A stretch of 55,584 bases of DNA from an uncultured Bacteroidales bacterium (lineage in GTDB: Bacteria; Bacteroidota; Bacteroidia; Bacteroidales; WCHB1-69): positions 1 through 55,584 of the forward strand of contig ONCM01000016.1 of assembly GCA_900316305.1 (NCBI GenBank), read 5' to 3'. Within the stretch, counting starts at the first letter, position 1, and every line of letters begins with the position of its first letter. Positions 409 through 32,062 of the stretch are shown here, piece after piece. Below the pieces are notes generated by a model, which worked only from the letters and a program-made list of their open reading frames with translations, ran no database searches and was not told where the DNA came from. The position numbers and the translations under genes were made by a program.

Positions 409-436
409 GTAGAGACGCAAAATTTTGCGTCTCTAC
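409..436. repeat. 28-bp palindrome, copy 1
   Basis: Perfect inverted repeat with 14-bp arms: GTAGAGACGCAAAA followed by its reverse complement. The outer nine bases on each side are shared with six other copies in the window, while the centre differs. It lies between the terminator of the 2285-residue gene and the promoter of the left-edge gene. Confidence 0.9.
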
Positions 437-12206: not shown

Positions 12207-12234
12207 GTAGAGACGCGCCATGGCACGTCTCCAC
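12207..12234. repeat. 28-bp palindrome, copy 3
   Basis: GTAGAGACG arm, centre CGCCATGGCA, arm CGTCTCCAC (one mismatch to the usual arm). The centre is identical to copy 6. It lies between divergent genes, upstream of ahcY. Confidence 0.85.
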
Positions 12235-13757: not shown

Positions 13758-13801
13758 GTAGAGTCGTTTCATGGTAGAGACGTTTCATGAAACGTCTCTA
13801 C
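13758..13801. repeat. 28-bp palindrome, copy 4, preceded by a half copy
   Basis: Bases 13774-13801 are a perfect palindrome with GTAGAGACG arms and centre TTTCATGAAA, identical to copy 5. Directly before it, 13758-13773 (GTAGAGTCGTTTCATG) repeats the left half with one change, so a partial element abuts a complete one. It follows the ahcY stop codon and precedes its terminator. Confidence 0.85.
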
Positions 13802-21747: not shown

Positions 21748-21775
21748 GTAGAGACGTTTCATGAAACGTCTCTAC
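21748..21775. repeat. 28-bp palindrome, copy 5
   Basis: Perfect palindrome with GTAGAGACG arms and centre TTTCATGAAA, identical to copy 4. It lies 9 nt downstream of the rfbC stop codon. Confidence 0.9.
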
Positions 21776-27059: not shown

Positions 27060-27122
27060 CTTATTTTGAGGACGAATCACATACGCCCCCACATCCACAA
27101 AATAATCTATCCAAAAAAATTC

Positions 27123-27149: not shown

Positions 27150-28646
27150 ATGCAAGAGAACAATTATTTCCCATCCATGCTTCCTGCCGAGGAGCTCTCG
27201 CAGGTGAAGTACATTCCCACTCTTCCCGAATTTGTAACTTGGATCGAACAGAAATGGTCTGATCTTCCCTGTCTTTCCGACACGGTGAACACATATACAT
27301 ACAGACAAGTATGCGACCGTGTGGCACGCAAACGCGCCCTCCTCAACAGCTTTGGTCTGCAGAAAGGCGACAAAGTGGCCATTTTGGATAACTCCACCAC
27401 TGATGCTGTGGAGATGTTCCTCGCTGTCACTTCAGCAGGCTACATCGCCATCAACCTGCCCGCCATGCTTCCCGCTCAAGCCATTGTCGGCTGTTGCATG
27501 AAGTTCGGCGTCAAGGTGTTGGCTGCTGGAAAAGCTTTCATGGAAGCCGTAAATGGGGCTCCTTGTAAGGTTATCGCCATCACCGATTGTGCGGACCACA
27601 CCGCTCCTGTTGCCACGGTTGACAAGAACGACCCTGCCGCTATTTTCTTCACGGGCGGCACCACGGGTGCACCCAAAGGCGCTATCCTGCCTCACCGCGC
27701 CCTGATGCGCGGCGCCCTCAACGGTCTCTACGCCCCGGGACACCAGCTCGGTTGTCACCGCTATGCTTGTGTGCTGCCTCTTAGCCACGTTTTCGGTTTG
27801 ATTTTCAGCACTTTGTCTGTACTTTACAAGGGCGCATCCTGGTATTCTGTCGGCAACACCAAAGATACCATCGGCAAACTGCCCGTCATCAGACCCACCA
27901 TGATGGTGGCTGTCCCCGGCATCTGCGAAATCCTGCTGGGTCTCGTCAAGATGTACGGCAAGCCCTTCCTCGGTGGCGAACTGAAGGTTATCATTTCCGG
28001 TGCAGCTAACGTGCCCCCGAAACTCATCGGTGAATTCGACGAACTGGGTATCAACCTCTTCGGCGGCTACGGCATGACGGAAGGTGCCAACCTCACCACC
28101 GGCAACATCGATGTTAAAACCAGACCCACGTCCGTAGGTAAGCTCTATCCTGAACAAGAAGCTAAGGTTGTGGACGGCGAACTGTGGTTCCGCGGCGACA
28201 ACGTCTTCCTCGGCTACTACGGCGAACCCGAAAAGACTGCGGAGACCCTCACGCCCGACGGCTGGGTCAAAACCGGTGACCTTGTCCGCTTCGACGAAGA
28301 CGGTTTCATGTACATCGTAGGCCGCATCAAAAACCTCATCATCCTCTCCAACGGCGAAAATATCAGTCCCGAGAGCATCGAGGAACCTTTCTACAAGGAC
28401 AACAAGCTTCGCGACTGCTTGGTGAAGGAAGACGAAATGGATGGTCGTAAGGTGATCGCCATCGAAATCCTGCCACGCATAGACGATTTCGGCAACGCCC
28501 CTTGGGAAGAGGTGGAAGCTTACTTCAAAGAGCTCGTCGGCAAGGTCAACGCCACGTTGCCCAGCACACACCAAGTCAGTAAAATTACCGTGCGTAAGGA
28601 AGACTTCAAGCGCACTGGCGCCCTGAAAGTGTCACGTAATCAATAA
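27150..28646 (+). CDS. Fatty acyl-ACP/CoA synthetase (AMP-forming ligase)
   Basis: Member of the ANL adenylating family, activating a carboxylic acid as acyl-AMP and transferring it to a thiol. The start at 27150 (MQENNYFPSM) follows a promoter box by 19 nt. 498 residues. Motifs are the P-loop-like FFTGGTTGAPKGAILPH (about 166), GYGMTEGA (about 305), KTGDLVRFDEDGFMYIVGR (about 375) and the catalytic lysine region FKRTGALKVSRN at the C terminus. An acyl carrier protein gene follows 3 nt later, so the likely thiol acceptor is that ACP. In the ceramide pathway known from Caulobacter, such a ligase loads the fatty acid used downstream. The substrate is inferred. Confidence 0.85.
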   Translation: MQENNYFPSMLPAEELSQVKYIPTLPEFVTWIEQKWSDLPCLSDTVNTYTYRQVCDRVARKRALLNSFGLQKGDKVAILDNSTTDAVEMFLAVTSAGYIAINLPAMLPAQAIVGCCMKFGVKVLAAGKAFMEAVNGAPCKVIAITDCADHTAPVATVDKNDPAAIFFTGGTTGAPKGAILPHRALMRGALNGLYAPGHQLGCHRYACVLPLSHVFGLIFSTLSVLYKGASWYSVGNTKDTIGKLPVIRPTMMVAVPGICEILLGLVKMYGKPFLGGELKVIISGAANVPPKLIGEFDELGINLFGGYGMTEGANLTTGNIDVKTRPTSVGKLYPEQEAKVVDGELWFRGDNVFLGYYGEPEKTAETLTPDGWVKTGDLVRFDEDGFMYIVGRIKNLIILSNGENISPESIEEPFYKDNKLRDCLVKEDEMDGRKVIAIEILPRIDDFGNAPWEEVEAYFKELVGKVNATLPSTHQVSKITVRKEDFKRTGALKVSRNQ

Positions 28647-28649
28647 AAT

Positions 28650-28892
28650 ATGGAAAGAGAAGCTATTCTTAACGAATTAAAAGAGATCCTGATTCTGATC
28701 AAACCCTCCATGGACTTGTCCGCCGTGACCGAGGAATCGCAGCTAGTCCGCGATGTCGGCCTCGACTCCCTCACCATCCTGCTCCTCAGCCTCGCCGTTG
28801 AGAACAAGTTCGGATTCAAGTTCGAAGGTACGCCCAAGTTTGAAACCGTGGGCGAAGTGATTGATTACATCAGCTTGCATGCAATGAAATAG
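28650..28892 (+). CDS. Acyl carrier protein (specialised)
   Basis: 80-residue acidic helical protein. The phosphopantetheine attachment serine lies in VGLDSLTILLL (about residue 41), and the end is ETVGEVIDYI as in ACPs. It lies 3 nt after the acyl ligase and 19 nt before a GNAT-like acyltransferase gene and is not in a fatty acid synthase cluster. This suggests a dedicated carrier for the pathway rather than the housekeeping AcpP. A phosphopantetheinyl transferase that could activate it is encoded at 53722-54372. Confidence 0.92.
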   Translation: MEREAILNELKEILILIKPSMDLSAVTEESQLVRDVGLDSLTILLLSLAVENKFGFKFEGTPKFETVGEVIDYISLHAMK

Positions 28893-28911
28893 CGTTCAAT
28901 AGTTTACGTTT

Positions 28912-30027
28912 ATGAATACTAGAATTGTCAAGGTGGAAAGTCACAAGCAGCTGAAGCAGTTTGTGACTTTTCCCCTTCATCTTTATAAAAACTGCGAAAA
29001 TTGGGTGCCGGCCTTGGAAGGCGACGAGTACGACACTTTCAATCCCAAGAAAAACGGCGCCTACGATTTTTGCGAAGCCGATTGCTTCTTAGCCTTTCGG
29101 GGCGATGAGATTGTGGGACGCATAGCTGCCATCATCAACCACAAAGCTGATGGTGAAGAGAATGTCGTGCGTTTCGGTTGGCTTGATTTTATTGAGGACG
29201 AGGAAGTTCTCAAAACTCTGATCGACACTGTTGCCGACTGGGGAAAACAACGCGGGCGCACCGAGATGCGAGGTCCGTGGGGATTCACCGATATGGACAA
29301 GGAAGGCTTGCTGGTGGAAGGTTTCGAACATCTGAGCCCATTCACCTGCCTCTACAACTACCTCTATTACGGACCAATGTTGGAAAAACTCGGCTTTACC
29401 AAGGAGGTCGATTGGACTCAACGGACGTTGGATGTGAGTCCCGAGCTACCGTCCATGTTCCAGTTCGCCCATTTGATTGAAAAACGCTCCAATGTCCATG
29501 TTGTCCAGCCAACCAGCATGAAAGATATGTGCAGACGTTATGGCATGGAGATCTTCCACATGTATAATGAGGCATTCGCCCCCTTGAACGGTTTTTCTCC
29601 ATTGACAGACAAGCAGATAGAAAACTATTTGGATACATACGTGCCTATTTTGGACAAAGACTTCGTGGCGGTGGCCGTCAACGACAAAGACCAGCCCATC
29701 GGCTTCCTTTTCTGCGTGCCGTCGCTCTCCAAGGCGGTGAAAAAGTCCAATGGACGGCTGTTCCCCTTCGGTTTCATCCGCATCATGAATGCGCTGAAGA
29801 AAAACGACACTTTGGAGGCACTTATTATGGGTGTACTGCCTGATTATCAGCAATGTGGAATACCTGTTTTGCTATTCAAGTATCTGCACGAAAACTGCAT
29901 TAAACGAGGCATCGACACCATCATCATGAACCCGCAATTGGAGGAGAATTACAAGGTACAATCTTTGTTTGGGGAATATACCACCCATCCATTTATGCGT
30001 CGTAGGGCATATAAACGTCACGTGTAG
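28912..30027 (+). CDS. GNAT-like N-acyltransferase, candidate bacterial ceramide synthase
   Basis: 371 residues with weak GNAT features. Strands FLAFRGDEIVGRIAAIINHK lie near residues 60-78, and IMGVLPDYQQCGIPVLLFKY lies near 303-324, where GNATs bind the acyl donor pantetheine. It follows ACP and acyl-ligase genes and faces serine palmitoyltransferase and reductase genes. Bacterial ceramide synthase characterised in Caulobacter is also a GNAT-like protein encoded among such genes. The inferred reaction is N-acylation of sphinganine or its 3-keto form by acyl-ACP or acyl-CoA. The TAG stop lies in a palindromic repeat. An unrelated acetyltransferase role cannot be excluded. Confidence 0.6.
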   Translation: MNTRIVKVESHKQLKQFVTFPLHLYKNCENWVPALEGDEYDTFNPKKNGAYDFCEADCFLAFRGDEIVGRIAAIINHKADGEENVVRFGWLDFIEDEEVLKTLIDTVADWGKQRGRTEMRGPWGFTDMDKEGLLVEGFEHLSPFTCLYNYLYYGPMLEKLGFTKEVDWTQRTLDVSPELPSMFQFAHLIEKRSNVHVVQPTSMKDMCRRYGMEIFHMYNEAFAPLNGFSPLTDKQIENYLDTYVPILDKDFVAVAVNDKDQPIGFLFCVPSLSKAVKKSNGRLFPFGFIRIMNALKKNDTLEALIMGVLPDYQQCGIPVLLFKYLHENCIKRGIDTIIMNPQLEENYKVQSLFGEYTTHPFMRRRAYKRHV

Positions 30028-30051
30028 AGACGCGCCATGGCACGTCTCTAC
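30024..30051. repeat. 28-bp palindrome, copy 6, containing a stop codon
   Basis: Arms GTAGAGACG and CGTCTCTAC, centre CGCCATGGCA as in copy 3. Its second to fourth bases are the TAG stop of the GNAT-like gene. It lies between the two convergent halves of the ceramide cluster. Confidence 0.9.
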
Positions 30052-30055
30052 AACG

Positions 30056-30072
30056 GGAAATGTTGCATTTCC
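30056..30072. terminator. Small hairpin between convergent operons
   Basis: GGAAATG, loop TTG, CATTTCC. It follows the palindrome and ends 2 nt before the stop codon of the reductase gene. No T-run follows on either strand, so its role as a terminator is weak. Confidence 0.35.
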
Positions 30073-30074
30073 TG

Positions 30075-30869
30075 TTACAATTTATAGTAACTACCGAGGA
30101 TTTTTGCGAACCAACGGGCAGGCAAGATGCGCTTCAGAAGCACTGACAGGCGCTGCTCGAACGAGGCAACCACATAACCGTGGCAAGGTCTTCTTTTACT
30201 TATAATTTGGCTAATCTTGCGAGCTAACACTTGCGGTTTCAACCCACCAGTTTCGTCATGTTCCACCTTATTCATCGACTCGGCATAGGTCTGGTAAACC
30301 TGAATCGCTTCAGCATTAGGTGTCTTTTTGCGACTGGCAGTAAAACCCGTGGAGAAATCGCCTGGACGAACCACAACAACCTGGATACCAAATTGTTGAA
30401 TTTCCAGACGAAGAGCTTCGCAATAGCCTTCAATGGCAAATTTGCTGGCGGAATAGAAGCCTTGGAAAGGCAGACCCATCACACCGCCGATGGAGCTCAT
30501 CGCGATGATTTTGCCGGAACCTTGCTTGCGCATGGTGGGCAGCACAGCGGTCACGAAATTCACCAACCCCATGAAGTTGGCATCCATCTGCTCCCGAATT
30601 TCCTCCTCGGTAGCAAACTCAACAGGTCCGCCGATGCCCATGCCGGCGTTGTTGACCAACACATCAATGCGCCCTTCCTTGTCAACAACTTGTTGCACAG
30701 TACTTTTCACCGCATCGCGGTCGCGGACATCCACTTTCAGATAGTGCACCCCGGGGAGTTGTTCCACCTCACGACGCACCGTGCCATAAACAGTATGTCC
30801 TTCCTGTGCCAGCAGACGAGCGGTTTCCAAACCGAAACCGGACGAGATTCCTGTAATCAGTACAACCAT
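30075..30869 (-). CDS. Short-chain dehydrogenase, candidate 3-ketosphinganine/3-ketoceramide reductase
   Basis: Classical SDR of 264 residues. The NAD(P) motif TGISSGFG is at residues 6-13, NNAG near 82, the catalytic serine in AMSSIGGVMG, and the YSASK Tyr/Lys pair near 141-145. The C-terminal ~70 residues are longer than in simple SDRs and end SVLLKRILPARWFAKILGSY, possibly membrane associated. It starts 2 nt after the stop of the serine palmitoyltransferase-like gene, so the two are translationally coupled. This pairing is the basis for proposing reduction of the 3-keto sphingoid base or ketoceramide; SDR sequence alone does not give the substrate. Confidence 0.75.
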   Translation of the reverse strand: MVVLITGISSGFGLETARLLAQEGHTVYGTVRREVEQLPGVHYLKVDVRDRDAVKSTVQQVVDKEGRIDVLVNNAGMGIGGPVEFATEEEIREQMDANFMGLVNFVTAVLPTMRKQGSGKIIAMSSIGGVMGLPFQGFYSASKFAIEGYCEALRLEIQQFGIQVVVVRPGDFSTGFTASRKKTPNAEAIQVYQTYAESMNKVEHDETGGLKPQVLARKISQIISKRRPCHGYVVASFEQRLSVLLKRILPARWFAKILGSYYKL

Positions 30870-30871
30870 AA

Positions 30872-32062
30872 TTATATGATTCCGGCTTCTTTAAATGCCT
30901 TGGTGATTTTGTCAATAGCTTCATCCACCTGCTCGTAGGTGTGGGTGGCCATCAGGGCGAAACGGATCAATACATCGTTTTCGGGAACGGCGGGGGCGAT
31001 GACCGGCGTGACGAAAACACCATCTTCCAGCAGACGGGAGCAAAGCCAGAAAGCCTTCTCCGAATTACGCACAAACAGAGGGATGATGGGCGTTTCGCTA
31101 CGACCCGTGTCGAAGCCACGCTCCTTGAATTGGTTGCGGGCGTAGTTGCTCACGTCCCAAAGGTGCTGGATACGCTCCGGTTCGTCCAACATAATATCGA
31201 TAGCCCTGCTGACCGCAGCCACGTTGGACGGCGGCATACTGGCGCTGAAAATCAGCGAACGGGCGTTGTGTTTCAGGTAATTAATGGTGTCTGCATCGGA
31301 AGCGATGAAACCACCCAACGAACCAAATGACTTTGAGAAGGTGCCCATGATGAGATCCACCTTGTCGGTCAGTCCAAAGTGGTCGGCCGTACCCCTGCCC
31401 TGGTGACCCAAAACACCCAAGGAGTGGGCATCATCAAGCATGATGTCGGCATCGTATTTCTCCGCCAGAGCCACCATTTCGGGCAGCGGGACGATATCGC
31501 CTTCCATGGAGAAGACACCGTCAGCAACAATCAACTTGATGGCTTCCGGATCGCATTGCTGCAGACATTTTTCCAAACTCTCCATATCGTTGTGGGCATA
31601 TTTCAGCGATTTGCCGAACGCCAACCGGCTACCCTCGATGATGGAGGCGTGGTTGAGCCTGTCGAGCAGCAAGTAGTCGTTGCGGCCGCACAGCGCGGAG
31701 ACCACTCCCAAGTTCACTTGGAAGCCCGTACTGAAGCACAACGCTCCATCCTTGCCCACGAGTCGAGCGAGTTTCTCCTCAAGTTCAACATGAATGTCAA
31801 GAGTGCCATTGAGGAAACGCGAGCCAGAACAGCTTGTGCCGTATTTGTCGATGGCGGCCTTGGCGGCCTCTTTCAGGCGGGGATCGTTGGATAGACCCAG
31901 ATAGCTGTTCGAACTGAACATCAGCACATCCTTGCCCTGTATCTTCACCACCGTGCTCTGTTCCGACTCGATAGCCTTATAATATGGATAGATTCCTTTT
32001 GCTTTTGCAATTTGCGGCGCCCTATACTGCGCACATCTGTTTCGTAGAATATGGGATTTCAT
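30872..32062 (-). CDS. spt: Serine palmitoyltransferase (alpha-oxoamine synthase family)
   Basis: PLP enzyme of the alpha-oxoamine synthase family, condensing an amino acid with an acyl thioester and releasing CO2. 396 residues. Landmarks are GIYPYYKAIESEQSTVVKI, FSSNSYLGLSNDP, SGSRFLNGTLDIHVELEEKL, LDRLNHASI, DDAHSLGVLGHQGRG near 209, and the PLP lysine in GTFSKSFGSLGG near 242. The GIYPYY opening and overall pattern match the serine palmitoyltransferases of Bacteroidota more than glycine C-acetyltransferase or BioF, and no biotin or threonine-degradation gene is nearby. It makes 3-ketosphinganine, the first step of sphingolipid synthesis. 8-amino-7-oxononanoate synthase remains the main alternative. 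Confidence 0.8.
   Translation of the reverse strand: MKSHILRNRCAQYRAPQIAKAKGIYPYYKAIESEQSTVVKIQGKDVLMFSSNSYLGLSNDPRLKEAAKAAIDKYGTSCSGSRFLNGTLDIHVELEEKLARLVGKDGALCFSTGFQVNLGVVSALCGRNDYLLLDRLNHASIIEGSRLAFGKSLKYAHNDMESLEKCLQQCDPEAIKLIVADGVFSMEGDIVPLPEMVALAEKYDADIMLDDAHSLGVLGHQGRGTADHFGLTDKVDLIMGTFSKSFGSLGGFIASDADTINYLKHNARSLIFSASMPPSNVAAVSRAIDIMLDEPERIQHLWDVSNYARNQFKERGFDTGRSETPIIPLFVRNSEKAFWLCSRLLEDGVFVTPVIAPAVPENDVLIRFALMATHTYEQVDEAIDKITKAFKEAGII

Follow-up and report, generated by a model that had tools for sequence, protein, structure and literature searches.

The window analyzed here is a 55,584-nucleotide stretch of contig ONCM01000016.1 (assembly GCA_900316305.1), from an uncultured Bacteroidales bacterium of the WCHB1-69 lineage. 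It contains five genes that an earlier reading of the letters alone (the original prediction) had taken for a compact ceramide biosynthesis cluster. On the plus strand lie an AMP-forming acyl ligase (AAS, 498 amino acids, 27150-28646, with an ATG at 27150; the mechanical open reading frame begins at a TTG at 27066), an acyl carrier protein (ACP, 80 amino acids, 28650-28892), and a GNAT protein (371 amino acids, 28912-30027), the proposed N-acyltransferase or ceramide synthase. On the minus strand lie a serine palmitoyltransferase (Spt, 396 amino acids, 30872-32062) and a short-chain dehydrogenase/reductase (SDR, 264 amino acids, 30075-30869), the proposed cytosolic 3-ketosphinganine reductase. 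The AAS-ACP-GNAT and Spt-SDR units are convergent, and the gene positions were confirmed as originally described, with recomputed gaps of 3 nucleotides (AAS-ACP), 19 nucleotides (ACP-GNAT), 47 nucleotides (GNAT-SDR), and 2 nucleotides (SDR-Spt). Judging from the gene families and their arrangement, it is very likely that these genes constitute a dihydroceramide-making cluster of two modules, with GNAT as the N-acyltransferase.

Family assignment of the five gene products

The pyridoxal phosphate (PLP)-type enzyme, which the original prediction had proposed to check against BioF and Kbl, was assigned as Spt by curated cut-offs. It scored 657.7 bits against NF047600 (serine palmitoyltransferase, CFB), above the cut-off of 640, and fell below the cut-offs for BioF and Kbl; these two identities were accordingly rejected. 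Its closest solved relatives, 8guh and 3a2b, are both named serine palmitoyltransferase (E of 1e-160). The ACP matched PF00550 at 23.9 bits (cut-off 20.8) and carries a GLDSL attachment motif in its translation. The SDR matched PF00106 at 168.5 bits, and its best NCBIfam model was NF049977 (KdsR), below the model's cut-off; no blastp match at E ≤ 0.01 was obtained to the reductases of Roseomonas, E. coli, Rubrobacter, Aureispira, or Sphingomonas. Its N terminus opens directly with the nucleotide-binding motif, and no signal peptide is evident. From the model score and the blastp result, we class the protein as a putative KDSR-like reductase and not as a CerR-type extended SDR.

Pfam and NCBIfam say little about the window GNAT. 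PF00583 was matched at 23.2 bits, over its cut-off of 20.7, but no single stretch passes, and a phmmer search of PDB sequences gave four matches, none below an E of 0.1. The protein is of the tandem-domain type, with two GNAT folds in one chain. When it was compared by tblastn with plasmid records, 43 records matched, and in 38 of them a single place spanned 80% or more of the query. The matches included E. coli YghO and Roseomonas proteins, several annotated as "dATP pyrophosphohydrolase." By blastp, GNAT was 27.7% identical to YghO over 382 aligned columns (E of 5e-42), matched the GNAT of the Roseomonas cluster at an E of 3e-40, and was 43% identical to a GNAT of Bacteroides finegoldii. A figure legend in PMC9386255 gives the acyl-CoA N-acyltransferase gene "aca" of ceramide clusters as CC_1154 and yghO. 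These alignments place the window GNAT, over its full length, in the YghO/bCerS family of Caulobacter-type N-acyltransferases, in keeping with the original prediction; the relation of the GNATs described here to the Caulobacter protein itself and to BF9343_4218 rests on YghO and inference. Both the overall bacterial ceramide pathway and the bCerS family are already known. In the passages available, PMC10865984 uses BF9343_4218 as the Bacteroides CerS reference, assigned by homology, and PMC9278070 counts ceramide synthase among the identified enzymes by citing another paper; the family is therefore not newly identified here, and a Bacteroides candidate had already been named before the suggestion that gene context could identify the Bacteroidota ceramide synthase.

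AAS matched PF00501 at 195.2 bits. Among its 25 best NCBIfam models, none was over its own cut-off; the best of them were long-chain acyl-CoA ligase models, with a CoA-ligase model at the top (203.2 bits) and all scores below 204. The fatty acyl-AMP ligase model NF006624 (cut-off 600), which the Roseomonas and E. coli ligases pass with 789.2 and 871.2 bits, was outside these 25 models, and the window ligase is consequently not of the AasR type of Caulobacter and E. coli. Direct blastp comparison with the Roseomonas and E. coli fatty acyl-AMP ligases gave weak, mostly local alignments of 29 to 198 residues. Some AAS relatives align nearly end to end with these cluster ligases at about 24 to 26% identity, as is expected within one superfamily. 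We propose, on the basis of sequence and position, that AAS is an acyl-ACP synthetase that would charge the neighboring ACP.

Distribution of the cluster genes in the genus and the order

Among 36 same-genus genomes, the window's own included, window-type AAS, GNAT, SDR, and Spt were all present in 15 and all absent from 21; the search covered these four genes. Window-type identity in the 15 genomes was at least 87% for GNAT and at least 84% for SDR. The pattern goes beyond chance; because the species share ancestry, it amounts to fewer than 36 independent events. Together with the family assignments, it supports the ceramide-pathway cluster of the original prediction, and it marks which species should make sphingolipids. 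Weaker SDR relatives (37 to 43% identity) are found in a few members of both groups. Of the 21 Spt-less members, 15 have a GNAT paralogue of 34 to 41% identity; it is thus the window-type GNAT alone that tracks Spt.

GNAT might instead acylate another amine, either the capnine of sulfonolipids or an amino acid, and lie by Spt through chance. The sulfonolipid pathway (SulA/CFAT and 3-ketocapnine reductase) follows a parallel logic, with a PLP condensing enzyme, an SDR reductase, and N-acylation, but it uses cysteate, and in this genome its condensing enzyme is encoded by a gene other than the one in the window. This cysteate fatty acyltransferase lies on another contig (G000:C43:135863-137140, locus L300), with 7u7h as its best PDB match. 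In favor of such an activity, the cysteate enzyme was found in 31 of the 36 genus genomes, including the window's own, albeit with some copies partial or containing a stop, and no second GNAT of the YghO/bCerS family is present in the window's genome. The GNAT tree, from which one fragment and 11 near-identical same-genus rows were dropped, also contains a grade of 26 relatives that come wholly from genomes with the cysteate enzyme; one of them (L104) adjoins it, and 7 are from Spt genomes, each with another GNAT. Against it, the window-type GNAT goes with Spt (present in 15 of 15 genomes with Spt, 0 of 21 without) and not with the cysteate enzyme, which is present in 18 of the 21 Spt-less members and whose distribution does not explain the on/off pattern in the genus. 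GNAT is also still present in genomes that have Spt but lack the cysteate enzyme. A role as capnine acylase was therefore rejected, and acylation of any such other amine is considered very improbable. No capnine N-acyltransferase was found by title in the literature search, and none is named in the portions consulted of two sulfonolipid papers. A clean division of the GNAT tree into one clade for Spt and another for the cysteate enzyme was kept in part only; it is not strict, because GNATs L274-L276, located in Spt-SDR operons, fell into the same 26-member grade upon later placement.

Across the order, Spt was detected in 51 of 159 genomes (E ≤ 1e-100), and a GNAT relative (E ≤ 1e-20) was present in 51/51 Spt-bearing versus 79/108 Spt-less genomes (Fisher 4e-6, kinship ignored). 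The original prediction held that occurrence of the GNAT family in genomes without spt would speak against its assignment; the family as a whole does occur in such genomes, whereas its window-type subgroup, in the genus, does not. AAS of this type was limited to 4 of the 159 genomes (E ≤ 1e-90). The genome-level E limits of 1e-90, 1e-100, and 1e-85 would miss fragments at contig ends; a lenient recheck for Spt in 20 Spt-less genomes gave only matches of at most 38% identity, among them a divergent Spt-like gene beside GNAT and SDR in G156.

The Bacteroides genes (Spt BT_0870, KDSR BT_0972, and CerS candidate BF9343_4218) share the Bacteroidota-type Spt and the KDSR step with the window but, unlike the window genes, are dispersed. 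According to passages in PMC9278070 and PMC11334938, respectively, BT_0972 does not cluster with Spt, and sphingolipid genes in Bacteroidota are not close together; in B. finegoldii, the neighbors of the GNAT gene are coaD and a gene for topoisomerase IV. These sources and this one locus agree with the statement in the original prediction that the genes are more scattered in Bacteroides. The remark in PMC11334938 does not hold throughout this order, however: at least 13 of the 51 Spt-bearing genomes have GNAT and Spt as immediate neighbors on one strand.

Two modules and a proposed route to dihydroceramide

Related loci were obtained by a GNAT-alignment scan of named genomes, from which the best 80 of at least 591 confirmed loci were taken. 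They are mostly from Bacteroidales, and many of the top-ranking ones come from rumen and gut samples. The loci were found by GNAT alone; AAS and ACP lay near it in 26 of these 80, with the AAS-ACP pair upstream on the same strand in 8, divergent in 8, convergent in 6, and downstream in 4. The distance to GNAT was at most 174 nucleotides in 24 of the 26 and 1.4 kb in L217. One downstream case, L216, is an in-frame GNAT::AAS fusion with an intact 886-amino-acid reading frame, which may be an error because it is known from a single assembly. In the same best 80, Spt with a window-type SDR was near GNAT only in the closest loci (L190, L191, and L196); six more named loci have Spt beside GNAT without AAS (L225, L231, L240, L250, L251, and L265), and five of these six carry a CerR-like reductase.

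Presence of Spt was tested in 40 of the 80 genomes. It was found in 23 of the 26 AAS-ACP-GNAT genomes versus 1 of 6 with unlinked GNATs (L198, L202, L215, L221, L222, and L223; Fisher 0.0015), or 3 of 8 when the truncated L199 and the broken L212 are added (Fisher 0.0085). Of 30 Spt loci in genomes other than the window's, 22 come from AAS-linked genomes; 17 of the 30 had an SDR next to Spt, and neither ACP nor AAS was seen beside Spt at the scan threshold within flanks of about 1.5 kb. In G037, the two modules are on different contigs. Thus, in related Bacteroidales the cluster falls into two modules, Spt-SDR and AAS-ACP-GNAT, and conservation does not extend to the whole five-gene neighborhood, which the original prediction had proposed to check. 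Two of the unlinked GNATs from Spt-less genomes are fused in frame to what appears by eye to be an MsrA-like peptide methionine sulfoxide reductase (L221:6001-7647 and L222:6001-7647).

Family-level gene identities, the tight arrangement, the shared presence or absence of the genes across the genus, and the recurrence of the two modules together suggest the following route. Spt would condense serine with an acyl thioester to 3-ketosphinganine, which the coupled cytosolic SDR would reduce to sphinganine. AAS would activate a free fatty acid and load it onto the dedicated ACP, and the tandem-GNAT protein would then use the ACP-borne acyl chain to N-acylate sphinganine (or 3-ketosphinganine), yielding dihydroceramide or its keto form. 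Since the usual partner of AAS-ACP is the acyltransferase and that of Spt is the reductase, we propose that AAS loads ACP for N-acylation while Spt and SDR make sphinganine. The dedicated acyl-ACP probably feeds N-acylation and not Spt, because AAS-ACP adjoins GNAT in 26 of the 80 GNAT loci, and none of the 30 Spt loci was seen to have it beside Spt. No description of an AAS-ACP pair linked to a bacterial ceramide synthase was found in the titles, abstract openings, and passages searched in the open-licence literature.

The Caulobacter/E. coli BL21 cluster (spt, acpR, aasR, epi/cerR, and aca/bcerS) combines these five functional classes over a few kb; its Spt and bCerS-family N-acyltransferase are homologous to those of the window, and it likewise includes an ACP and an AMP ligase. 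According to a passage of PMC9386255, C. crescentus and E. coli BL21 are the only ones of the Rhodobacteria compared there in which all five genes cluster. In contrast, the window has a KDSR-like reductase in place of the extended-SDR CerR, a ligase that is not of the AasR type, and an ACP that adjoins the N-acyltransferase and not Spt, within two convergent operons. Read from its genes, the window cluster would work like that of Caulobacter yet is not a member of it in three defining features. Stretches fetched from E. coli, Roseomonas, and Sphingomonas contain YghO-type, PLP, and ACP genes as well as a gene for an NAD(P)-binding reductase, apparently an extended SDR, and those of E. coli and Roseomonas also contain a fatty acyl-AMP ligase; in the Rubrobacter and Aureispira records, Spt and GNAT are side by side, with an extended-SDR-like reductase beyond.

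AAS and ACP could also be wired as in Caulobacter, feeding Spt, with GNAT drawing on acyl-CoA or housekeeping acyl-ACP. PMC9386255 states, in the text available, that a dedicated acyl-ACP is the Spt substrate in Caulobacter and that acyl-AcpR is the preferred one in Rhodobacteria, and the presence of Spt in 23 of the 26 AAS-ACP-GNAT genomes fits this wiring as well. The same paper reports that acpR usually precedes spt in Rhodobacteria, whereas here ACP and AAS lie by GNAT in the 26 loci and were not seen beside Spt in the 30 Spt loci. The one natural GNAT::AAS fusion, the lack of AasR likeness in AAS, and the occurrence of the same AAS type beside an acyltransferase in the Spt-less genomes G052 and G115 further argue against it, and we regard Caulobacter-like wiring as possible but rather unlikely. 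Still less likely is the Caulobacter reaction order, in which N-acylation comes first and the keto-ceramide is then reduced. It is backed by localization work in Caulobacter, where, as an excerpt of PMC11087976 has it, the CerR reductase is periplasmic and acts last. The window reductase, however, is KDSR-like, coupled to Spt by 2 nucleotides, and begins directly with its nucleotide-binding motif; because of this N terminus and the absence of an evident signal peptide, reduction is placed before N-acylation in our scheme.

Several observations weigh against a dihydroceramide cluster with GNAT as its N-acyltransferase. GNAT relatives occur without Spt in the 79 Spt-less genomes of the order mentioned above, and the AAS-ACP-GNAT genomes L205, L210, and L227 showed no Spt. 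The KdsR model scores the SDR at 333.8 bits, under its curated cut-off of 400. AAS could make acyl-CoA instead of acyl-ACP, because NCBIfam places it nearest to acyl-CoA ligase models, and G052 and G115 have AAS without Spt or this GNAT (E ≤ 1e-20); in both, AAS follows a predicted phospholipid-type acyltransferase (function assigned by eye from its motif). L301-L303 carry a second GNAT, from a different clade, in the Spt-SDR operon, with AAS-ACP-GNAT elsewhere, so the ceramide synthase of these loci is ambiguous: it could be either GNAT, or both with different acyl chains. Finally, support comes from sequence alone: every catalytic activity, the use of acyl-ACP as donor for N-acylation, and the placing of reduction before it are predicted.

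The gene order of these operons is GNAT-Spt-SDR in L301:2946-6060 and L302:3303-6557, and Spt-SDR-GNAT in L303:2852-5961. A PlsC-like acyltransferase (by eye) adjoins the AAS type in L185:6985-9122 and L186:6945-9365, from genomes with neither Spt nor this GNAT, with an ACP also present in L186.

More broadly, the Bacteroidales may have arrived at a Caulobacter-like cluster of five functions with components that are in part unrelated and with a different wiring. A self-contained, acyl-ACP-fed AAS-ACP-GNAT module would give the second chain, for which scavenged fatty acids are a possible source, and Spt and its reductase would form an independent module; we consider the chances of this scenario to be evenly balanced. 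If it is true, the N-acyl chain would be chosen by a dedicated acyl-ACP synthetase. The two-module pattern predicts that, unlike in Caulobacter, acyl-ACP feeds N-acylation, and the compact cluster can be moved whole into E. coli, where the N-acyltransferase, the acyl donor, and the reaction order are directly testable. Bacteroidota sphingolipids are described in published abstracts as reaching animal hosts and influencing immunity and lipid metabolism.

Variant copies, flanking genes, and a dispersed repeat

Two incomplete copies of the cluster are present in G024, L187 (G024:C36) and L188 (G024:C42); one lacks SDR, and in the other Spt-SDR is accompanied by a GNAT split over two frames, the pieces of which were kept separate. 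In G025 (L189), the cysteate enzyme is accompanied by an SDR, an AMP ligase, and a gene resembling threonine synthase (by eye), an arrangement that looks like a sulfonolipid cluster. Different species have the cluster of the window, or parts of it, in different neighborhoods (L161, L167, L187, and L194). Relatives of one MMPL-type protein are nearby in these four loci, and a LolA-like gene is present in three (Pfam assignments were checked on L187); these neighbors possibly serve lipid export. The genes flanking the cluster in the window look unrelated to it; their products are a predicted methyltransferase, a regulator of the MerR type, and one that resembles SmpB (by eye only).

The 3' ends of the two convergent units are separated by a 28-bp palindromic dispersed repeat (30024-30051), which may end the transcripts of both as a two-way terminator. 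Five copies with at most three mismatches were found in the window (409-436, 12207-12234, 13774-13801, 21748-21775, and 30024-30051), compared to none in 100 shuffles. The repeat has the form GTAGAGACG-N10-CGTCTCTAC, from which two of the window copies deviate by one or two mismatches, and its core is present in 11 of the 303 fetched loci, several of which overlap.

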